This document shows, one piece after another, positions 4,226-51,720 of a stretch of 64,000 nucleotides of DNA. How positions within the stretch are numbered: the stretch's first letter is position 1; each line of letters opens with the position of its first letter. This DNA comes from Branchiostoma floridae (Eukaryota > Chordata > Leptocardii > Amphioxiformes > Branchiostomatidae), in the NCBI RefSeq assembly GCF_000003815.2, contig NC_049980.1, forward strand, positions 10,937,422-11,001,421. The letters are read 5' to 3'. The position numbers and the translations under genes were made by a program. The notes under the pieces are model-generated. The model saw only the letters and a list, made by a program, of their open reading frames with translations. It was not told the DNA's origin and did no database searches.

Positions 4226-4289
4226 GTCTCATTGAAGTATTACTCCGAATGGTTTTTAGATTACATTAAGGTACCAAGAGCCCTTTTCA

Positions 4290-5425
4290 ACAATACCAAG
4301 TCTGAACGACTAGAACACACTCTTAGCTATGTTGCCTCTAAGCACTACGCAAACCGTAACCCTTACCCTATCGTTAAGGGTAAGGGTAGTTTTCAGAATA
4401 TATTAAGGTACCAAGACCCCTTTTTAATGATACCAAGTTTGACCGACTAGAATACACTCTTAGCCATGTTGCCTCTAAGCACTACCCTAACCCTAACCCG
4501 ACCCTAGCGGTTAGTGCTGAAGTCATATCTCGGGAAGTAAGCACCCGATTTAAAAACGGTTTGCAGATTACAACTCTGTACCAAGATACCTTTTCAGCCA
4601 TACAAAGTTTGACTGACTAGAATACATTCCTAGCCATGTTGCCTCTAAGCACTACCCTAACCCTAACCGTAACCCTAACCCTAGCGGTTAATGCTGAAGT
4701 CATATCTCGGGAAGTAAGCACACGATTTCAAAACAGTTTGCAGATTACAACTCTGTATCAAGATACCTTTTCAATCATACCAAGTTGGCCGACTAGAATA
4801 CACTCTTAGCCATGTTGCCTCTAAGCACTACCCTAACCCTAACCCTAACCCTAACCCTAACCCTAACCCTAACCCTAACCCTAACCCTAGCGGTTAATGC
4901 TGAAGTAATATCTCGGGAAGTAAGCACCCGATTTAAAAACTGTTTGAAGGTTACAACTCTGTACCAAGATACTTTTTCAATCATACCAAGTTTGACCGAC
5001 TAGAATACACTCTTAGCCATGTTGCCTCTAAGCACTACCCTAACCCTAACCGTAACCCTAACCCTAACCCTAGCGGTTAATGCTGAAGTAATATCTCGGG
5101 AAGTAAGCACACGATTTCAAAACGGTTTGCAGATTACAACTCTGTACCAAGATACCTTTTCAATCATACCAAGTTTGACCGACTAGAATACACTCTTAGC
5201 CATGTTGCCTCTAAGCACTACCCTAACCCTAACCCTAACCCTAACCCTAACCCTAGCGGTTAGTGCTTAAGTCATATCTCGGCAAGTAAGCACCCGATTT
5301 CAAAACGGTTTGCAGATTACAAATCTGTACCAACATACCTTTGTAATGATACCAAGTTTGGCCGCCTAGAATACACTCTTAGCAATGTTGCCTCTAAGCA
5401 CTACCCTAACCCTAACCCTAACGAG
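4290..5425 (+). repeat. Composite satellite with embedded CCCTAA (telomere-type) arrays
   Basis: The anchor GTTGCCTCTAAGCACTA recurs at about 4331, 4468, 4638, 4813, 5021, 5203 and 5386. Each copy has a unique ~130-bp part (CTAGCGGTTAATGCTGAAGT, ATCTCGGGAAGTAAGCACC, GTTTGCAGATTACAACTCTG, CCAAGTTTGACCGACTAG) plus a run of CCCTAA hexamers of varying length. The longest run, about ten hexamers, is at 4830-4888. Differing hexamer counts explain the unequal spacing (137-208 bp). Part of one more copy appears at 20653-20725 next to an assembly gap, so the family is dispersed. The open frames across the hexamers are not genes. Confidence 0.9.
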
Positions 5426-6262
5426 GTATATCCAAGGACCGTGGATTGATGAACTCCACTATGTTGATGAAATCCACAGCTGTGGATTTCATCGGTAGAA
5501 GGATGATGAACTCCACAGCTGTGGATTTCATCGATATGTAGTGATGAAATCCACGGGCATTCCGCCGCTAATACTGACATTTGGCTGTGGACTTCATCAG
5601 TATGTAGTGATGAAATCCACGGGCATTCCGTCGCTAATACTGACATTTGGCTGTGGACTTCATCAGTATGTAGTGATGAAATCCACGGGCATTCCGTCGC
5701 TAATACTGACATTTGGCTGTGGACTTCATCAGTATGTAGTGATGAAATCCACGGGCATTCCGTCGCTAATACTGACATTTGGCTGTGGACTTCATCAGTA
5801 TGTAGTGATGAAATCCACGGGCATTCCGTCGCTAATGCTAACATTTAGCTGTAGACTTCATCAGTATGTAGTGATGAAATCCACGGGCATTCCGTCGCTA
5901 ATGCTAACATTTAGCTGTAGACTTCATCAGTATGTAGTGATGAAATCCACGGGCATTCTGTCGCTAATACTGACATTTGGTTGTGGACTTCATCAGTATG
6001 TAGTGATGAAATCCACGGGCATTCTGTCGCTAATACTGACATTTGGTTGTGGACTTCATCAGTATGTAGTGATGAAATCCACGGGCATTCTGTCGCTAAT
6101 ACTGACATTTGGTTGTGGACTTCATCTGTATGTAGTGATGAAATCCACGGGCATTCTGCCGCTAATATTGACATTTGGTTGGCTGTGGATTTCATCAATA
6201 TGTACGTAGGGGTGAAATCCACGGGCATTCCGTCGCTAATACTGACATTTGGCTGTGGATAG
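5426..6262 (+). repeat. 66-bp minisatellite with self-complementary unit
   Basis: From about 5541 a 66-bp unit repeats roughly eleven times: GATGAAATCCACGGGCATTC, CGTCGCTAATACTGACATTT, GGCTGTGGACTTCATCAGTA, TGTAGT. A degenerate lead-in begins at 5450. The unit length is a multiple of three and stop-free, so both strands show long open frames (22-residue repeats). These are artefacts of the repeat. Within each unit GATGAAATCCAC can pair with GTGGACTTCATC, so single strands can form hairpins. Sub-variants (TTTAGCTGTAGAC in two adjacent units, TTTGGTTGTGGAC in later ones) cluster, which suggests local spread by unequal exchange or slippage. Confidence 0.92.
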
Positions 6263-11855: not shown

Positions 11856-11859
11856 AACA

Positions 11860-12863
11860 ATGAAGGCTCACCTGGGGGATAACCGCTAACCGCTAAGCGA
11901 ACCCTTCGGTAACCGCAAAAAAAGCGACCCCTTACGATCGGACTTCCGAAATTTCAAACAAAATGTGCGTTACTTTCAACACTTGAGTATCATAGTAAAA
12001 CCCGTGGGCAAAAGATAAAAAGTGATTTGAGTACCCAAAATTACTTTGTAACTTTTCTACATACGAATGAAGGCTCACCTGGGGATAACCGCTAACCGCT
12101 AAGTGAACCCTTCGGTAACCGCAAAAAAGCGACCCCTTACGATCGGACTTCCGAAATTTCAAACAAAATGTGCGTTACTTTCAATACTTGAATATCAAAG
12201 TAAAACCCGTGGGCAAAAGGTAAAAAGTGATTTGAGTACCCAAAATTACTTTGTAACTTTTCTACATACGAATGAAGGCTCACCTGGGGATAACCGCTAA
12301 CCGCTAAGCGAACCCTTCGGTAACCGCAAAAAAGCGACCCCTTACGATCGGACTTCCGAAATTTCAAACAAAATGTGCGTTACTTTCAACACTTGAGTAT
12401 CATAGTAAAACCCGTGGGCAAAAGATAAAAAGTGATTTGAGTACCCAAAATTACTTTGTAACTTTTCTACATACGAATGAAGGCTCACCTGGGGATAACC
12501 GCTAACCGCTAAGTGAACCCTTCGGTAACCGCAAAAAAGCGACCCCTTACGATCGGACTTCCGAAATTTCAAACAAAATGTGCGTTACTTTCAATACTTG
12601 AATATCAAAGTAAAACCCGTGGGCAAAAGGTAAAAAGTGATTTGAGTACCCAAAATTACTTTGTAACTTTTCTACATACCAATGAAGGCTCACCTGGGGA
12701 TAACCGCTAACCGCTAAGCGAACCCTTCGGTAACCGCAAAAAAGCGACCCCTTACGATCGGACTTCCGAAATTTCAAACAAAATGTGCGTTTCTTCAACA
12801 CTTGAGTATCATAGTAAAACCGCGTGGCCACACCTGAGAATCACTTCCACGGGGAGTCTAGTA
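11860..12863 (+). repeat. 205-bp satellite with 410-bp higher-order structure
   Basis: The anchor ATGAAGGCTCACCTGGGG/GATA recurs at 11860, 12067, 12272, 12477 and 12682, a 205-bp period (207 for the first). Copies alternate between two types. Type A has AACACTTGAGTATCATAG and AAAAGATAAAA. Type B has AATACTTGAATATCAAAG and AAAAGGTAAAA. The true repeat is therefore a 410-bp dimer, which is why identical small open frames sit 410 bp apart (12103 and 12513). The array runs up to an assembly gap and is probably longer in the genome. Confidence 0.93.
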
Positions 12864-12963
12864 NNNNNNNNNNNNNNNNNNNNNNNNNNNNNNNNNNNNN
12901 NNNNNNNNNNNNNNNNNNNNNNNNNNNNNNNNNNNNNNNNNNNNNNNNNNNNNNNNNNNNNNN
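12864..12963. other. Assembly gap (100 N)
   Basis: 100-N placeholder next to the 205-bp satellite. A missing Homer EVH1 exon could lie here. Confidence 0.99.
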
Positions 12964-14505
12964 ACTTATACTGTACTTTGGAAACATGCATTGCACATGA
13001 TGTGAGTAGACCACCTGCTCTTAGACGAGGAAAGAAATTACACAACAATGCAAGCAATAAACCTAGCTAATTGCTATCCTTGTTAGCTTTGCATGTAGTT
13101 CCAAGTTTCATATTCTTGGGAACGTGTATCAGAACAACAAAACCTAGCCAAATTTGTATGGTACATTTTTCAAGGAATTGTTGATTCATGATACTCTGAT
13201 CATTTGATTTAAACCTAAACTTCTGTTTACATACATCAAACAGCTCTATTTATAGAACATTTGCATGTCCAAATACTCTTCATATTGTAGTATGATATTC
13301 TAAATCATTGGATTATCCTTTTGCATGCATAATAAAGAAGTCCCTGTGTACTCGATAATCTAGTGGCTCCATTTGAAAGAAAATCTCTTCATATAAGAGC
13401 ATTATGCATCAATAATTCAGCACCCCTTTATTTTGCTCTCCTGGGCAGATGTCATATATTCCCTGTGGATGAGTAATTGGGAATAAAGTTGAAAAAATCA
13501 ATGATTGGGAATCTAGCCAAGAGGAAATGTTAATGCATGATGTAACTCTAGGTGTTACATGTACATTGTGCAATGATTCATCAATGTTTGAAGAGCTGAG
13601 GTGCCTAAGCATTTGCAGGAATTTGAGATTCGTACAAATTTTATGAAAAATGTACAAATTTTTTGGAAAACGCACAAATCACTGCAAAAAACGTACTGTA
13701 CAAGTTTCATAAAATTTGTGCAAATATTTACTAATAGGCCCCCCTTTAATAGAAAGCAACTTTTCATGATGCATTGCCTTACTACCTAACTTACAGTACA
13801 GGTACAGACAGCCTTAGAAACAGATTAAAGACAGGGTTCACCAGCACATACATGTACAATGTATGTCATCTAAATCACAACAAATAAAACATTACAACAA
13901 CCAGTGGAATGTATAACACTCTGAGCTGCTAAAGTAGCCATATTTTTTAATTAAAAATGAGGCACATTGGAAATTAAGTTGACAGCACGACAGACCACCA
14001 CCTGCTTTAATCTGTGTAATGGGGATTCCTATGACTTAGCTTAGAGAGTTTCCACTGGTGGCTGCAATTTTTCAGATGTTGTGATTCGGGTGAACTAGGT
14101 AGCGATTTGTCGGGTTAACCTGCCGATTCTAAGGGCCAGCAGGGTGCCGGAGAAATGTTCGCCTGCACTGAGGAATGTACCAATATTTCTGAGGAATGTA
14201 TGCTTACAAATTGAGGAACATCTGCTTTCCAAGAGGAGTGAATGCTTGAAAGAAGACGAATGTCGGCTTTCCTAGACCTACTAGCCATAATTTGCATAAA
14301 TGACCAGATTCGATTGGTCAGGATGATAATGTGAGGGCCAGCAAGTTTAGCAAGTACTTGTGCCTCTTACTCTAGTGTTGCAGATGCATATTCATATATT
14401 ACAGATGTTGTATCATGCAACCATTTCTCTGAGTGAAAACTATAGGAACACAGTACAGCCACAATACTACACATGTTACAAAGTTCTTTGCCCTGTCTTT
14501 TCCAG
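12964..14505. other. Homer intron, no exon recognised
   Basis: AT-rich. Near 13625-13730 ACAAATTTTATGAAAAATGT and similar runs recur in both orientations (…CATAAAATTTGTGCAAAT), a small imperfect foldback. Nothing else is supported. Confidence 0.4.
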
Positions 14506-17500
14506 GCCATTATCAACAGCACCATCACCCCCAACATGACATACACCAAAACGTCACAGAAGTTTGTACAGTGGGCAGACATCAGGGCCAACACAGTCTA
14601 TGGTCTGGGATCTTCTGAAGAGTCAGAGCTGGCTAAGGTAGTGATGCACCCTCTTTTATTATTACTTTTAGGATCATACATCTTAATCATTTGACTGCAT
14701 GCTGAAGAAAGGTCATGACTCTTAAGGAAGGTTAGGCCACCTCTTTGAGTGTTTCTTGGGTCTCAAGTAGCTCTGTAAATAAAGAAAGCAATGTGTCAAT
14801 GGAACTTTCTCATGTGAATGTTCATCAAAATCCTCCCAGCAGATTTCTTTTCATCCTATTTTGTTTGCTCTACATAACCATTTATCTGGCTTAATGGCAG
14901 GTGCAGAAGTAGAGTGCTAATGGCATTAGATCACAAGTCATTAGTGTGCCCTCAGGGAAGACAAAGTGGCCATTTTTCCGAATCATTAAAAACTAGTACA
15001 CGTACATTGTATTTCCTTTAAAGTAAACATTAAATGTACCGTACAGATTGGTATCTGTCACTAGAAAAATTATGTCATTTTTGCTTATTATGTATCTGCA
15101 CTATCTACAATGTATAAGATAATGTTTAAAAAGCCTCACATAATCTATCAGGTCTAGTCCCACAAGGTTTCCTTCTGAGTCCTATATACAACATACATTC
15201 TCATAATTCCACCAGGTGCCACCTAAAAAAACATTGTTATAGAGGCCTTCTCAAGATTGTCTTCAACACCTAAATATCTTAATTGTATTCTATTTAATAT
15301 ATTTAACATTCGGTGTTCAAGACAATCTGATTGTATTCCATTTGATATATTTAACATTCGGTGTTCAAGACAATCTTGGGAAGACCTCTATAACGGGGGC
15401 CGCCCTAAGACGGTCCCCGTCGTAAGACGGTACGGATTTTTTGCTGATCTTATTATCCATAAGTACACCGTGTTTGTTGCCACTGACTATGCTGATTACA
15501 AAGGTAAATAAACCAAGTCCACGCACACAGCTTTAATTTGCATTCCAAGTATACTTTAACATATTTACTTCATGTTTTTTTAAGAGCAGAATTCTAACAG
15601 TAATGTTGACAGTGCTGAATCACTGCGGTCACCGGCCTCTGCGTATTGGCGGCTCGTGTTGCTAACTATACGAACTCATCCAAGCAGTCATACAACTGCC
15701 ATGATACACATAGATAAAGCTCCATAAAACACTATGAATATGGGTCTTCAAATGTTTGTTGAGTAGAAAAGCAACCAAAAGGAAGCAACATAAACATTGC
15801 CACCATTGTACTCCCAAGGGAGTGTGGCCGTGAAGGTGGCAGACTAGAGAACGCTCCAAAGATTTATTTGACTGTAACAAATGATTCGTGCTGTCTATGA
15901 AAATAAGACTTGACAGAGAGATGTAGATGATATTTTCATATAATCAGACGGAGTTTTGTTGATGTTGGCGGTGTCGTTTTTTCGTAATGTTTTTTTTAGT
16001 CGGGCATTCACAATCAGTGCATTCAGCCCATTGCCCGTAAAACATCAGCTGGATTGTTCTAGGTACAGCCTTCCTCATGTGAGACAAGAAGTACATACAG
16101 TCACGATTTTACTGTCAAAAGAAAGCTAAAATATCATACTATTAATTTTTTTCTGTGTACTTAAATTTACCACTTACTTCTGAAGAGAGCAAAATATAAA
16201 AAAAAGCGTACCGAGTTAGGCACACTGTCCAGCGTAGCACAAAATTGGAAGGTTACATACACGAAATTGTCTCTCAGTGTTTGCCGCTTGTAACACGCAG
16301 CGCGAAAGGTTCATGAACCACATGAATGCATTTCTTATTCAAGTATGTTGTTCAAATCTATGAGTAAAAAATTCAGTCATCAAAATTTGACCACTCTCAG
16401 GCAACTAGCGATGGAGCACCATGAGTTTGAGCGCAAGAAAAAGCGTACCGTGTTGGGGCACCTCCCGTTACTAACGTTTTTTGAAGTGGCGGTATAATGA
16501 CACCAGGTGGAATTATGAGACTGTATGTTATATATATGTATATAGAAAGAGAGAGGGAAAGAGAGGAAGAAGGATAAGGAGAGACTGCTATTTTTTCAGT
16601 GTTCCATTCTTCATTATCAACATAACTCTCTCTGTGGTATGTCTGACAACTGTCAAGGTGACCTTCCTCACAGATCTGGAATGCACGTCCCTACAGCCAG
16701 ACAGTTGAGCCCTGGGATGAACGTGCTTGTCTTCTAACAACTTTCTCTGTCATATATACAGCCTTGCTGGGCTTACATACACATAAACATATTCATCACT
16801 TTATAGTCCTTGACTGACAGGGATAGGCCAAGGGCATATAACAAAGGGATTGATGAAAAATGTATCTTTTAGTTTTAGGTTGACAGACCCAGTACAAGTT
16901 TTTGCATATTTGTGAGCTAACTGTTATTTTTGAAAATGTATTTTACTGTTGTTTTACAGCGAGTGAGTAAATTAGGTCTCACTTGTTTGTTTCTGTTACA
17001 TGTTTCAAACCTCACTTCAGGGTTTCTCCACAGTTCCTAACAAAGGAGGGTGGTTTCACCTGTGTTTCCCTCACAGGACAAGATGGAGGTCTCACTTCAA
17101 TCTTAACAGTTTAAAGCAGGGAGAAAGTTGCACTTCTTTGTCTCTTGAGCTCCTTGCCAAAATTAGGTCTAGCTACCCACTTCTATCAAGTTTGCAGTCA
17201 TGAAAGGTCTACATTTTTCTACAGTTCCAAGCCATGGCGTCCTCTCTATGTCTTTTCACACTTCCACCTGGGAGAGATGTCTTGCCTCTGCTTCTTCTGT
17301 AGCTCCAAATGTCATCTAAGGAAAAGTGTCACCCTGTATGTGTGTTTCTTATCAGTTTCTAGCCAAGTTCCAGGAAGCCAAAGAGTCAGCCAAGCAAGAG
17401 GTTGATCGCATCCGTGCCAGGAATAGCCCAGGCACGCCTAGATCATCCCGACAGAGCCTGCAGCAGAAGGGAGAGAAGTCTAACGGTATCTCACCACCAG

Positions 17501-19416
17501 TGCAGCATGGTAGCACTGTGCCCAAGACTCCAGGGACACCTCAAGAGACATGCAAGGCAAAGGAAAAGCAGCAGAGTGACATCACATCTGTTCAGTCAGA
17601 CGAAATCACTACAGAGCATTCCAAACCTAAGGAATCCAATCAGGAAGAAGAGGTTGATAACTAGTACATTGACTAAGACCAGTACTACATTGTAGATATT
17701 CCTGAACTACTCACAACAGCAACTCTCGTGCTGAGTTAATATAATGGTTAAACTGTTCTTCAATAATATGAACCTTTGTAGTTGTAGTCTTTTCCTGTTA
17801 CCAATAAGGTTACCCTGTACTTTCATTTGTATGGTCACAAATTAAGACTAAATTTCTGAATAGATATTCAATACACACATACAGTACATTTGTACATGTG
17901 AATGAAGAAACTTTGTACAATCAGATGAATATACAGGGTGGCCTTATAACTAGACTAACATATCTGACTTTCCCATCTTCTGAGCTTTAGGTCTCATGTT
18001 GCAGTTCACTGCAGACACTGTGGTGATGGTGGTCTCTTTTTGCTCTGACTCAAACATACTCCTAATAGATTATTCAAAGTAGCTATGGCAGTTGCACTAA
18101 CATTATTGATGAAATCACAGAAGTGTGGGCATATTTTCTAGTTACTATGATTACCATGCAATGTGCTGACACTGTTACAATGTTTTGTTGCAGATAGTTA
18201 GTTCTTCCTTACATAGAAAGTGTCAGAGTTGATTAAAGAAACTCTATATCACATTAACATGTGGGACTGTTCTCTCCAGTTCATTGAGAAGTTCCAGGAT
18301 GCTAAGCAGTCTGCACGACAGGAGGTGGAGAGAATCCGCGCCCAGTCGGGAGGCAGTACACCACAGACACCTCACACACCGCAGAAAATACCAACTGTCA
18401 ACGGTACAGCTACCTCACTGGGCTCAGGTAAGGGATCCTGCAGCTGGACTGAGTTTTGTTGTGTGTAGAGGTGTTAAATTCATAAAGTCTGGGGGCAATT
18501 TAGCTAATTTTGCTTATAGCAGCCCGTGCAACATCCGCCGCCTTCGGCAGGGAGGGGCCAGTTACAACCCGGACAGCAGTGTTTGTTTCACACAGACTAG
18601 GGGGCACTGCACAACAGACAAAAAATTAGTACTGTTAGCAATAATGAGAGTTTACTTTGAAAATTGAGATCATAAAACCACTGCATTTATTAATTTACTG
18701 TGCTATAATGGATGTCATGATTACTGTTGCACTGTCAACAGATATGTTGTAATTTTAGTGAAAGGAGTCTTAAGGTTAGTCAATTTCCCTGGACAGGTAC
18801 ATTTCCCCGTGACCATCGGAGTTCCCAGTCCCTCAACCTGCCTCCAGAGAACCCAGAGTCCTTCCAGGATAGATCAGACGCGAAGAGCGACAATGGGCCA
18901 CTGACTGCCGACTCCCAGCTGAAGTATGAGAATGATAGACTCAAGATAGCCCTGGCACAGAGGTACATGTAACACAGCACTGTCGTTGTGTTGTTTTTCG
19001 TGTTGTTAAACCATTTAAGTTTACACCAATCACATGTGTAGTCTGCTGTGTGGTTCGGGGGCATGCGCTCAAACACACACATATACACAGTGTACATACA
19101 AGTACATACCGTCACTCACTTTAAAAAGCCCTTGCCCAGGCTCTAGGCCATGTACGTACTCCATACACATTTCAACCTCCTTGCCCCTACATAACATGAT
19201 CCCTCCTGTTTCTACCCTATTTTTCAGCAATAACACATTTCCATTGTGATTTGCTGTAGCTCTGCCAATGCAAAGAAGTGGGAGGTGGAACTGCAGACCC
19301 TGAAGAACAACAATACCCGCCTGACCACGGCCCTGCAGGAAAGTACCGCTAATGTCGAGGAGTGGAAGAAACAGCTGGCTGCGTACAAGGAAGAGAATGA
19401 GAGTATGAAGAAAAAG
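14506..19416 (+). CDS. HOMER: Homer scaffold protein, long form (EVH1 + start of coiled coil), incomplete
   Basis: Homer proteins use an N-terminal EVH1 domain to bind PPxxF ligands (group I mGluR, IP3/ryanodine receptors, Shank) and a C-terminal coiled coil to multimerise at synapses and calcium-signalling sites. Long-form exons: 14506-14637 (EVH1 core, [20 protein letters not shown]…RANTVYGLG), 18280-18427 ([20 protein letters not shown], a Thr/Pro linker), 18797-18962 (Ser-rich linker) and 19260-19416 ([14 protein letters not shown]…[20 protein letters not shown], the conserved coiled-coil start). Phases join cleanly (0, 1, 2, 0). Against vertebrate Homer1, G76 is V and F90 is S, while the GLG (G89) is kept. 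The remaining ~150 residues of coiled coil are not seen and may lie in the gap at 20553. The middle EVH1 exon is also missing upstream. The exon at 17356 is an alternative to 18280. Confidence 0.93.
15236..15394. mobile_element. Short foldback/MITE-like element
   Basis: Near-perfect 35-bp terminal inverted repeats: GTTATAGAGGCCTTCTCAAG… at 15236-15270 and its complement at 15360-15394, with three mismatches. The 89-bp interior contains a partial second copy of the right arm (GGTGTTCAAGACAATCT at 15313-15329) and a duplicated GATATATTTAACATTCGG-type segment. No clear target duplication. It lies in a Homer intron. Confidence 0.7.
17356..17664 (+). CDS. HOMER: Alternative terminal exon of Homer giving a short, coiled-coil-free form
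   Basis: After a TTTCTTATCAG acceptor the frame reads [20 protein letters not shown], then a Ser/Pro/Lys-rich tail ending …SNQEEEVDN and TAG at 17662-17664 (103 codons). Its start is clearly homologous to the exon at 18280 ([20 protein letters not shown]), in the same phase 0 after exon 14506-14637. Splicing to this exon would finish the EVH1 C-terminal helix and stop before the coiled coil, as mammalian Homer1a and Ania-3 do by a different route (intronic termination). No canonical AATAAA was seen close downstream; weak variants such as AATATA occur near 17926. Whether both forms are made is not shown by the sequence. Confidence 0.85.
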   Translation, partial: FLAKFQEAKESAKQEVDRIRARNSPGTPRSSRQSLQQKGEKSNGISPPVQHGSTVPKTPGTPQETCKAKEKQQSDITSVQSDEITTEHSKPKESNQEEEVDN

Positions 19417-20552
19417 GTATGGTCACTCTATGTGTCTGCATTCTGAATAACTTTCATACTGAAAGAAGTGCCAAGATTGGTTCGTTTAGTACCATTTTGT
19501 GCTATATTCCTGAGCTAGCCTAAACTACTTGGATATAGCATAAATCAGCAGGAATGATGTCAGGAAAAAGCCTTCGTATTATAAAGTAAAACTTTTGAAT
19601 ATAGAATGTTATGTAATGTGCAACATTGCTAGTTATAGCTAGACAGAAATATTAGCACCATACTGGGAATCACAGAGAAGCACACTCAAAGACAAACATA
19701 TAGACACACATAGGCAAAGAGACAAGCCAAAGACAATACCTCACCCTCACGACCGGGCAGAGTAATGAGATTGTTTGTATAGCTGGAGAGATTGAGTGCA
19801 TGTCTGAAAATCACTGTTGCCTTTCATGCATGCATTGTTGTAACTAATATTAGTCTCTCACTCTTGAAGCAAAAGGCCATATGAAATTTGTCTGACGCCC
19901 ACCCAGGGCAAACATTGTGCCACAAGGACTTGTACTTGAAGAACAAACATAAAAAAACATCGCTCAGTTACTAGTCTGTCAGATCTGTTACTCCCCATCT
20001 TGTGAAGTTTGGATGACATGTGGTTGACAGCTATTAGTACTTCTGTCTTGTGGGTCCACACTACTGTGAATTGTGAAACATTAGTGGTACATGTAGTTTT
20101 AGTTTTAGCACTTCACAGCATATTCATCCCGAGTATGTGTTTTGATAAATTACTACAGAATTTTACAACTGGAAATATCACGAACAAAACCACTGCAAAA
20201 GTAAACAGATTTGCAGTATGAAGGTTGAGGTACCAAATGTCTACTATGATGTAGTCATCATATAGTTTGGCATCAGACAACCTAAGCCTCTTATGGCCCA
20301 TTCTGTATTGACATACGTCAGTTTTTTATAGTTACAAGGAAGCTAGCAATACCATGCTAGTCCAGGGTACAGTTCCTGTAACAATACATGATATTAAAGC
20401 ACTCATGCTGAGTGAAAAATGCCCCTTCTTGAATGGACATAGATTTTTATCCATATGAAGTGCAATGTACTTACATTTTCATGGGGTCTAGTGATTTTTC
20501 CCTTCAGTGCTGTAGGAAAATCTCTATTCCTTGAATATTCAGTGACTATCCA
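19417..20552. other. Homer intron/3' region, no exon recognised
   Basis: No coiled-coil-like exon was found before the gap. Short open frames here have no motif. Confidence 0.45.
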
Positions 20553-20652
20553 NNNNNNNNNNNNNNNNNNNNNNNNNNNNNNNNNNNNNNNNNNNNNNNN
20601 NNNNNNNNNNNNNNNNNNNNNNNNNNNNNNNNNNNNNNNNNNNNNNNNNNNN
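20553..20652. other. Assembly gap (100 N)
   Basis: 100-N placeholder followed directly by telomere-like satellite sequence. The last Homer exons may lie here. Confidence 0.99.
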
Positions 20653-20725
20653 CCGTAACCGTAACCCTAGCGGTTAGTGCTGAAGTCATATCTCGGGAAG
20701 TAAGCACCCAACGGTTTGCAGATTA
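20653..20725 (+). repeat. Fragment of the telomere-like composite satellite
   Basis: CCGTAACCGTAACCCTAGCG, GTTAGTGCTGAAGTCATATC and TCGGGAAGTAAGCACCC match the satellite at 4290-5425, ending in AACGGTTTGCAGATTAG. The array probably extends into the gap. Confidence 0.88.
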
Positions 20726-21923: not shown

Positions 21924-24900
21924 TTAGGACCTCTCCGGTGTGGTGATGACCTCAATTATGGTGGCAAGAGTCCGGCAGATTTCAGTCGCTTGGTCCTACA
22001 GAGAAAAGAGAATGGAAGGTGAATAAGAAAGAAGCATGTAGCTGATACATTTTGTACATTTAAAAAAAAGCACATTTTATTTTTGTGGAAATGGTCAAAG
22101 AAAAAAGCTTCTTGCCAAAAATAAAGAAATGCATCCATGGTACCAGTACTCAGTCCTAAGTAAGACAATGTTATTTTTTGGACAGAAAAGGGAGTATTAT
22201 CCGGAGACTATGTGATGAAAATTAAGTAAAATTCAATGGACAGTGAACAAGTAGGGCATGGTACATTGAATAAGGCAGCTGCTTGGATCCCAGGATGCCT
22301 ACTCAGTATCCCTACACATTCACATTTCCCAATATTCACATTACCCCTGGTAGTGAAGCTCACTACCAAGAGTGGTCAATTCTTCCTAACCAGATACAGT
22401 ATAAGACTGTTAAGTAGTCTCTCCATCTCAACGACTGGTCCCACCTGACTGTTACACTGGAAGGCCAGCAGGCCGTACTTGGTTTTCCTGGGTTGTCCCA
22501 CCTTTATGGCCACAACCTGTTTCCCCAGTCCGTCATCATAACAAACCACTCTCTGGATACTGTACAGGGGATGTCTGTATAGTACCTACAACAAATACAG
22601 GTACACGGTTGTCAGTTTATACTGATCAAGCCTTACATGGCCAACTAAGGCCATCATTCACATATCATAACTATCTCATATCTGTTACCAGCTTCTTTTA
22701 TTTCATGAAAATGCATGCAAACAGCCACCATTCCATCCTCATAATGTCATATTCATAGTGATTCTTTCTCTTCATATCAGGGGTATAGCCAGCGTCCGTT
22801 TTTCCGAAAAATTTTAAAACCAATCCGTCAACCTTGACAGACAAAAATCCTTGGTGGAAGCTACAGGCGGCTTGGGGACGCCGTCCACGGCCGTAAAAAC
22901 CACACACTGTTTGTTTTGCTATTGTTATGATTGTTGACAATGTGTGTCGGCGCCCTTTCGCATACGATAATCTCATTAAAACCCGTTTTTCAAGGTCTCA
23001 GTTCAGTCCTTCTAATTAATTTTCGCGGTTTTCGCGACGATTGTAATTGGCTGACGGAAAAAAATTTCGAGCTGGCTAAAGCCCTGCTTCATATAAAAGT
23101 GGCTCACTCCTCTGGCCTGGGAACTATCTTCTTTAGTGACTGCTGGCTCAATTTTTTAGCTGGTTGCAGTGCACATTGGTGACAGACAATTTAGTACAGA
23201 CCCATAATGTCTGTTGTATAGAATGAGGCAATAATTCCCCAGTCTGCAGGGATTTCGGACAGGTAAAAGATCCAAATGTCATTATCCAAGGAAAAGATTG
23301 AGCCAGTGGCCACCATGGAAGATAGTACCCAGACTATCACTACTCACATCATTAATTTCCACCCAGGATTGAGATGTTCAAAATTTTTTTAGCATAGAGC
23401 TATTGTAGAGTGGAATTCATTGGCAGCAAGTACTGTAGGGGTATCCTCACTAGATATGCAAAGCTTAGGTGTGACAGGTCCTTCAGTGTGATATAACCAG
23501 TTGCTGCCATGCTGCACTCCTGTGTGCCGCAAGGAAGTCTCAACTATATAAAACACAATGCAACTTACTAGTAAAGCAGTCAGTAACTAAGAAACAAAGA
23601 CTAAAACCACTCACCACAGGTGAGTTGACCTCCATGACCTTTATCCCATACTTGAACAATACCAGGATGACTTGACTTTCATCCTTGGCAATGAAGGGTA
23701 TCCTTCGGTATTGCTGTAAAAGGCATGGATTTAATTATAGTCTACTATCAATACAACAAAGTAACCAAGTCTGTTATTCAAGATTTTGACAACAAAATTT
23801 ACTTTCCTAAATGTTTCCAACAGCAAGGAATATCCCTCTTAACAAAAGAAAATAAAGGTATGCTAATAACCGTTGTTAGGCTTATGCATGGTTTTCTCAA
23901 TTTCTGATGCATTTCACATAGAAATCTGTGTTTTCTCTGGTGAGTATGACATATTTGATATACATTTGTAACAGAGTAATGCTGGGACCTTGTGTGATAT
24001 GGAATCTCTATGTACATAGTGTAGCCACCAGTCTGACCTGGTTGAGGTCGATGGTGTTGATCATGCCGATGGCTCCCTGGTTGTCCACATCCTCCAGGCT
24101 GTCCAGCACGGCCAGAAGTTTCACCTTGAACTCTGCGACCCCGCCCAGCACTGCTGACACACCTGAGGGAGGGGAGTAGCCATGTATGCAGATACCCTTC
24201 AAATTGATCATCAACAATATAAATGCATTTAGAGCTACATGGGCAGTGTTTTCGTTTCTTCTTCTTCTAAATATTGCAATGATAAGTTTTATCTTCACTC
24301 ATGAGGAACATGTCTTTGCAAGTATACATTTCATATGCAGGATTTAGCCAGGCATGCATCCAGGCATCAACTGGACGCACTAGATGACCGTACACCTAGA
24401 TGTCACTGGGTAGCAGATCCCCTGATAAGCATGAAATTCTCGTTGACCAGGGATGCCATTATGTCACTTGTGGTGACAGTCTTCTACTGTGACCTCTCTG
24501 ACAGTGATTTTGCCCCTCAAGATACAAGAAAATGTACTTTAGAATGCACCATTTTAACTTCTTTTTGAAATTCAACTAAAATTCACAAAACCTCTGATCC
24601 ATGGAAGGTGGATGCTTACAACAGTTGCGCCTATATCACGTACCACGACTTACCAAGCCTTATAATAAAATCCTAGCTAAAAGCCTGTTCATATGTCCTT
24701 TTAATGAGTAAAAACATACATCCCAGTCTCTTACCTGAGCTTCTCTGGGACTCTGAGCTGGGTTCAAACCCTGTACCACTGGATCGGGACCACTGGCCAC
24801 TGCTGCTTGAGGATGCCTGGAAGTGTGACAGATATAACAACTTATTCTTTGAACAAAAATGGAAGTCCTTTTTTTTTCTTATACCTTGAGAATACCTTTA

Positions 24901-49986: not shown

Positions 49987-51720
49987 TGCAATAGATGCAA
50001 ATTCAAGAACATTCAGCATAAACGTAGATAATCAATGATAGTAATGTAGTTATTCCACTGGAATCAATATCAAGATTCCGATCATCTAATTACATGTATA
50101 TAGTTTTGGAAAGGAGACGCCGTTCAAGGCCGTAAAAATGCTTAGATAAATCTTCTCAACTGGTCACAGCGTAGTCTGTACTGTCGGGGTAATGACATGT
50201 ATCTAGCTTTTAAGAAGTTAATAAAGAGATATGATATCATACATTATTGTCATTATTGTCATTATTTGTACCAGAGTTGTCTCACATTGATTGTCCATAA
50301 GTGAGCCGAATTGAAGGGACCTGCGTCCATTCGTAGTGAGGTCAAAGCAAGTAGTATTTAGATCTGGGTAGACGGATAGACGTTGAACTGATATCTTGCA
50401 TTGTTTTTCCTCGCACGCCACCCTGCTTTTAAAGGGTTTACAGAGAATGCCACCCATTAAACTCATTGACTGTGGCTCAGCTGGTTTTAAAATTCTAGGA
50501 TAGATTCACTCTACAACTAGTCTGAGCTGAGCAAGGAAACGAAGGGCTGCCAAGATTATGCTTTATACCTATAATCAAACAATTAGTGACATCTCTTCAG
50601 AACTGAAACGTACAAACTTTAATGCACACTAAAGAATCCATGATGTTTTCTCATGACTTTAGCACCCAGGGGTTTTACATGCTGTGATGTATATAGTCGG
50701 GGGAAAGGCCTATGTCGATGCACTGTGCAGGGACAGGTGTGTTTACTGGTGTTGGTGTTCAGCACCAAGGACAGGTATGATCGCTTATGAGTGAATCGTG
50801 TTTGGCGCCTGGACAAGTTTTATTACTTGTGTGTGGATGGTGTTCAGCACCAAGGACAGGTGTATTTGTCTTATAAATATGTAGACAATGAATGAATGCA
50901 GGAATTACTTAAAAAAACCTAGACGTGGCAATCATAAGCAAGAAAAGTCTGCAGCAGTCAACACGGTAATCTAACATGGTTCATAAGAGAAAAAGTCGGA
51001 ACAGGAGGGTTTTTTTTTAGAACAACACAAAAAGCCGTTTTCACGGCACCGTTTCAGTCGGATAACAGTCTAACAGCGACCCCTAGTGATCAGAAAGCAA
51101 AATGCATATCTTTAGTTGAGGCAGGAAAGAGAAAACTTTAATTTCTGCATCACCCCATACACAACACTCCCTCTCGATGCGTTCATACTCTTCACACACA
51201 CAGTGAAACACCAATACAAGTGTTATGATTTATTACGGTACTTTGTAACATAAGTAACGTTAGACATAATAATCACACTATGCTGAGATAGTAGAACAAA
51301 TGCTACCCTTATAATGGCTGCAGCTGTGAAGTGCTTGGATGTATGACTGACACCCTTTGTTTTTGAGGAACTGCTACAAGACTGCTTTCAGCATATTCTC
51401 TGTTAAACCAGGCTTCCATGCCGTATCATTTGACATCATTACTGACATCAAAATCAATTCAACAGTATGAGTGTTATAGCAACATTACATGTATGCATTC
51501 ACAACAATCACATAAGGCAGGCCGATAACTTGATATACTCATTTATTGCAGCAAAATTATCAATAAACATTTTTTTAAGAGGAAGAGGTTTGACCTGTTG
51601 CACATAGTTTACAATTGTTGCACAATACAATGGCACAGTATCTGGTACCTGTGCTCATAGATTTAAGCTCAGGTCAAAACATGATCACATGTACAACTAG
51701 AAACTTCTTAATGACACCAG
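49987..51720. other. Region between convergent XKR B and OSTM1
   Basis: Two convergent 3' UTRs, with AATAAA signals at about 50220 (+) and, on the minus strand, at 51546-51541. GTGTTCAGCACCAAGGACAG occurs twice (near 50754 and 50840) as a small direct repeat. No other gene is supported. Confidence 0.5.

Follow-up and report, generated by a model that had tools for sequence, protein, structure and literature searches.

Tandemly duplicated post-EVH1 exons in a lancelet Homer gene and a plausible switch to a short Homer form

Homer1a, a synaptic regulator induced by activity, has been studied extensively. In mammals, Homer proteins that lack the coiled coil have been described as dominant negatives (PMC5672496, PMC3332115) and as monomers in competition with tetrameric Homer (PMC11237882), and each of the three mammalian Homer genes reportedly gives rise to short forms through early termination (PMC5672496). 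In mouse, a 3′-elongated exon serves as the terminal exon of Homer1a, and Ania-3 uses the next exon, likewise elongated and numbered 7 in that paper (PMC7656758). For Drosophila, the one invertebrate compared here, which has a single gene for a cross-linking Homer, a Homer1a homologue is reported to be absent (PMC3332115). A choice among homologous tandem exons at the 3′ end of a gene, one being chosen at a time, is described for Drosophila pip (PMC9013439). Here, we describe a Homer gene of the Florida lancelet, Branchiostoma floridae, part of which lies in a 64-kb window of contig NC_049980.1 (64,000 nucleotides, the whole stretch of DNA that was analyzed). This gene carries two adjacent copies, exons 5a and 5b, of the exon that follows the EVH1 domain, and 5a is proposed to be an alternative terminal exon of a short Homer.

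Like mammalian Homer1a (Vesl-1S), the proposed lancelet form would lack the coiled coil, and its transcript would stop within or shortly beyond the exons that encode EVH1. Homer1a is made with one elongated exon, as described for mouse in the text cited above (PMC7656758), whereas the lancelet form would be made with a separate tandem copy having its own 3′ extension and stop codon. Activity induction is established for Homer1a. Like mammalian Ania-3, the lancelet form would be a short Homer generated via an alternative terminal exon; the exon used by Ania-3 is the elongated next exon in the same description (PMC7656758), whereas that of the lancelet would be a duplicate of the post-EVH1 exon. 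The pip copies are all described as terminal (PMC9013439), whereas in the lancelet one copy is internal and the other is proposed to be terminal, and the choice between 5a and 5b, unlike that in pip, would decide whether the oligomerization domain is present. No report of a lancelet Homer isoform was found in the accessible text of the literature searched for Homer together with amphioxus or lancelet.

Two copies of the post-EVH1 exon

All Homer exons described here are on the plus strand. Exon 4 (14506–14637) encodes the second half of the Homer EVH1 domain and ends in phase 0 (...SELAK|gtagtg at 14637). Exon 5a (17356–17664) encodes a copy of the helix that follows EVH1 and then a tail rich in proline, serine, threonine, glutamate, and glutamine, and it ends in a TAG stop codon (17662–17664). 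Exon 5b (18280–18427) encodes another copy of the helix and the P-motif-like sequence TPQTPHTP, and it ends at the strong donor CAG|GTAAGG. The sequences directly 5′ of the starts of 5a (17356) and 5b (18280) were gtgtttcttatcag and ctgttctctccag, respectively, and both acceptors were judged to be good by eye. Both exons are entered in phase 0, and the joins from 14637 to 17356 and from 14637 to 18280 are both in frame. From 5b, the frame is kept through the linker exon 6 (18797–18962) into exon 7 (19260–19416), which encodes the first part of the coiled coil and ends in ENESMKKK.

The original prediction had described two neighboring exons encoding the same post-EVH1 helix in the same phase, the first ending in a stop codon after 103 codons and the second splicing on to the coiled coil. 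Our coordinates and reading frames agree with this description, with the 103 codons comprising 102 sense codons and the TAG. The alignment of 5a with 5b scored 94, and the best of 1000 shuffles scored 50. The Homer piece in the window, which had been taken as the gene itself, turned out to be a fragment between two assembly gaps; a fuller Homer gene, in which 5a and 5b are both present, lies 8.6 Mb away on the same scaffold (C2:19,545,282–19,556,901) and is referred to here as the other assembled copy. Exons 5a and 5b are adjacent homologous exons in one gene, in both assembled copies, and the exon duplication that had been predicted is thereby borne out. An assembly duplicate was rejected as the source of the pair, since 22 of 66 bases differ between the helix copies and since the window carries the two exons in a single stretch free of gaps and the other assembled copy carries them again.

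The 22 differences between the first 22 codons of 5a and 5b were distributed over codon positions 1, 2, and 3 as 5, 3, and 14, respectively. With Nei-Gojobori counting over the 22 aligned codons, the proportions of differing synonymous (pS) and nonsynonymous (pN) sites were 0.89 and 0.18, respectively (Fisher p 8e-6, rounded counts). When the same 22 changes were placed at random, only 2 of 20000 placements gave seven or fewer amino-acid changes. The divergence is given as site counts, a codon-model estimate of synonymous divergence (dS) being unusable at synonymous saturation. The saturation of the synonymous sites but not of the replacement sites indicates that the helix copies in both 5a and 5b have long been conserved as protein. 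The same saturation indicates that the duplication is old, with an age that is not datable from one species.

The relationship to Homer was also clear at the protein level. Exon 4 was 80% identical to mammalian Homer1 over 45 amino acids (E 4e-17), and exon 7 was 63% identical over 57 amino acids (E 7e-17). Exon 4 joined to 5a matched Pfam WH1 (2e-12), and exon 4 joined to 5b matched Homer structures in the PDB (seven distinct sequences), the best of which was 1i2h (Homer-1c; E 2.7e-24).

Terminal or internal use of exon 5a

Exon 5a is probably an alternative terminal exon that gives a short Homer without the coiled coil, 5b being an internal exon that leads to the multimerizing coiled coil. 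Splicing from 14637 to 18280 would produce a coiled-coil Homer that cross-links its ligands, and splicing from 14637 to 17356 with cleavage past 17664 would produce a protein that has EVH1 and the helix together with P-motif-like sites and an acidic, disordered tail but no coiled coil. This short Homer would be expected to bind PPxxF-type ligands singly and to compete with tetrameric Homer, loosening the scaffold, as Homer1a does. The use of 5a, its poly(A) site, the disorder of its tail, and the competing role of the short form are what we infer from the gene; a link between the short form and neuronal activity would be a guess.

The extent of exon-like sequence in 5a bears on this reading. 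In 17356–18279, the base composition shifted at 17653 (support 17644–17685), near the stop codon; the gain there was 22.0, compared with 9.2 for a boundary at 17485, and the maximum in 200 shuffles was 11.6. In the controls for this test, the true exon end was inside the support interval for exons 4, 6, and 7 (three of four). The T content of 17486–17664 was 0.16, lower than in all 3898 overlapping windows of the introns of the gene, and it was 0.34 directly after the 5a stop. The G+C content of 17486–17664 was 0.475, a value matched by 0.7% of the intron windows. Beyond 17485, a P-motif-like match was found between KTPGTPQ of 5a and QTPHTPQ of 5b (score 47, equaled by 1 of 1000 shuffles). The exon-like composition thus reaches the 5a stop and not 17485, which favors a terminal exon.

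The position 17485 matters because 5a might instead be an internal exon, mutually exclusive with 5b, that ends at 17485 (or 17509) and is spliced to exon 6, with the rest of its frame being intron. In that case, the coiled coil would be present in both isoforms, with differences confined to the helix and linker. The two best donors in 5a, the weak candidate ACG|GTATCT (17486–17491, after 17485) and a second weak one, ATGGTAGCA at 17509, are in phase 1 like that of 5b and would be joined to exon 6 in frame. The use of 5a (to 17485) together with 5b breaks the frame, and a frame break on joint inclusion is a frequent trait of mutually exclusive exons. Furthermore, each of the three differences that the assembled copies show past 17485 is a replacement, as if this part were unconstrained. 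However, with a vertebrate donor matrix, the donor at 17485 scored 3.3, lower than the five used donors that were scored (4.55, 4.96, 8.53, 10.71, and 11.67), and roughly one-tenth of the GT sites in the upstream intron did equally well (90th percentile 3.29, 172 sites). The weakness of this donor, the composition up to the stop codon, and the P-motif match after 17485 together favor the terminal exon, and we consider an internal 5a to be unlikely.

Several observations weigh against the terminal-exon reading. The weak donor at 17485 keeps an internal 5a under consideration. The best point of the composition test was exact only for exon 7, being off by 79 bases for exon 4 and 105 bases for exon 6, and the test missed the end of exon 5b; in addition, T contents as low as that of the 5a tail occurred in 1.0% of 62,709 windows from the whole 64 kb. 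The P-motif match sits in low-complexity sequence, and an ungapped alignment paired another stretch of 5a with the P-motif of 5b. A second frame is open across 17363–17695, and no likeness was detected between the 5a tail and the mammalian Homer tail, with 488 of 1000 shuffles scoring as well. In the region after 5a (17665–18279, plus strand), which is proposed to consist of the 3′ untranslated region and then the intron before 5b, a scan for 13 poly(A) signal hexamers detected no AATAAA from 17665 to the start of 5b and neither AATAAA nor ATTAAA within the first 560 bases past the stop. Between the assembled copies, 5a had four replacement changes and no silent change, all at or after 17479, compared with two replacement and eight silent changes in exons 4, 5b, 6, and 7 (Fisher p 0.015). 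The 5a tail is thus without visible purifying selection; it may be loosely constrained and disordered, noncoding, or partly a sequence error. The four replacements without a silent change and the lack of AATAAA or ATTAAA close to the 5a stop would also suit a relic or rarely used exon that yields no functional protein, or one that lowers Homer output via nonsense-mediated decay. Nevertheless, the amino acids of the helix were kept while the synonymous sites became saturated, a decay exon has no need of a conserved helix, and the frame and acceptor of 5a are intact in both copies, the frame being open and free of insertions and deletions in the other assembled copy too. A relic or decay exon therefore appears quite improbable.

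Further features of 5a and the region after it were recorded. ATTAAA first occurs at 18232, 48 bases short of 5b, and the weaker poly(A) variants after the 5a stop include AATATA at 17738 and 17928, AATAGA at 17859, and AATACA at 17870. No intron window among 3583 was open over 103 codons, and the 5a stretch stayed open in 63 of 4000 dinucleotide shuffles; given these open shuffles and the second open frame, the openness of 5a was rejected as proof of coding, being weak. The 5a tail contains 8 large hydrophobic residues in 82, and it showed a possible match to 5b plus exon 6 (7 of 1000 shuffles equally good). The part of 5a at 17422–17664 had 4 differences in 243 bases between the assembled copies, versus 1 in 612 bases for 17668–18279, an excess in the tail.

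The Homer fragment, the fuller gene, and other features of the window

The Homer-bearing fragment (12964–20552) ends exactly at runs of 100 N on both sides (12864–12963 and 20553–20652). Its blocks 12964–14205, 14205–14678, 14768–15392, and 16958–20552 were aligned to C2:19,546,003–19,553,956 with identities of 96.2 to 99.8% (98.6% over 5951 aligned columns), and the match stopped exactly at both gaps. Alignment blocks under 120 bases were left out, 14679–14767 is in none of the listed blocks, and 15393–16957 faces 1877 N in the other copy. The fragment contains only the second half of EVH1. The first half was not found in the 64-kb window by tblastn with mammalian Homer1, and the remaining coiled coil was not found there by the same search and a scan for coil-like stretches. 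The EVH1 motif is GLGF in the fuller gene and GLGS in the window copy owing to one base at 14612, which is a variant or an assembly error.

In the fuller gene, the first EVH1 exon was 65% identical to Homer1 (E 3e-19). Three more downstream exons were read by eye from the frames; they are joined in phase, with consistent AG/GT borders and a stop at C2:19,556,901; among these, only the last matched Homer1, weakly (E 0.11). The long model of this gene comprised 390 open residues from EQPVF to the stop, the start exon not having been sought, and the short model, with 5a, was also open. The long and short models matched WH1 with E values of 4e-29 and 1e-29, respectively, over profile positions 9–110 of 111, and the fuller lancelet gene thus carries a Homer-type EVH1 (WH1) domain. 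No Homer coiled coil was among the PDB search matches for the fuller-gene models.

A search of the 513-Mb assembly (431 contigs) gave a single match for the first EVH1 exon and two for each of the other exons searched (13 matches, E up to 1). For a Florida lancelet assembly described in PMC7269912, the two haplotypes are stated to have been built separately before being merged, and we infer that this is the assembly analyzed here. The gap-bounded similarity, the single match of the first EVH1 exon, and this merging of haplotypes make an unmerged haplotype contig the likeliest identity of the Homer piece in the window. Since the exon pair is present in both assembled copies, it is no artefact of such an origin. 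A distance of 8.6 Mb to the fuller gene within one scaffold and a divergence of about 1.4% in the aligned sequence (indels included) would also fit a true second, truncated locus derived from a recent segmental duplication, which would have no bearing on the use of 5a. However, the similarity stops exactly at the assembly gaps on both sides, the first EVH1 exon has only one match in the genome search, and the haplotypes were assembled separately before merging according to PMC7269912; a second locus is very unlikely.

On the minus strand, exons of a gene resembling that for integrin beta-1-binding protein 1 (ICAP-1) were found at 22376–23734 (Pfam ICAP-1_inte_bdg, E 2e-17; PDB 4dx8, E 1.5e-14). 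The closeness of this gene to Homer is probably only apparent, because the Homer piece looks misplaced. A mir-2060 precursor was detected at 50779–50871, scoring 66.1 bits with Rfam RF03662, for which the gathering score is 54.5; mir-2060 is a microRNA family known from lancelets. Runs of the telomere-type sequence ACCCTA were present at 4252–5422 within larger repeat units of about 137, 177, and 183 bases, and similar sequence lies right of the gap at 20653 (20650–20680). Two tandem arrays were located, one of a 66-base unit at 5518–6259 (11.1 copies) and one of a 205-base unit at 11859–12827 (4.7 copies) that stops shortly before the gap at 12864. A tRNA scan of the window found none.

Origin and meaning of the exon pair

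Judged by gene position rather than by mammalian exon borders, the duplicated lancelet exon seems to be the same exon as that used for Homer1a. The original prediction had presented the lancelet arrangement as an evolutionary route separate from that of mammals. The duplication itself stands, but its separateness may be too simple a view, since the elongated mouse Homer1a exon looks, by its position, like the same one. If the exon is the same, the double role of one exon may have been divided between two in the lancelet. A tentative and rather doubtful scenario is that an ancestral post-EVH1 exon could be read either as an internal or as an elongated terminal exon, as the Homer1a exon can to this day, and that in the lineage of the lancelet it was duplicated and its copies became specialized, providing an invertebrate chordate with a short dominant-negative Homer.

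The exon duplication is real and old, and the short-Homer switch is plausible. If the switch is true, short Homers occur outside vertebrates, via a dedicated and long-conserved terminal exon copy. A synaptic switch of the Homer1a type would then either predate vertebrates or have originated two times at one and the same exon, and whether it is ancestral to chordates or arose twice would become testable.

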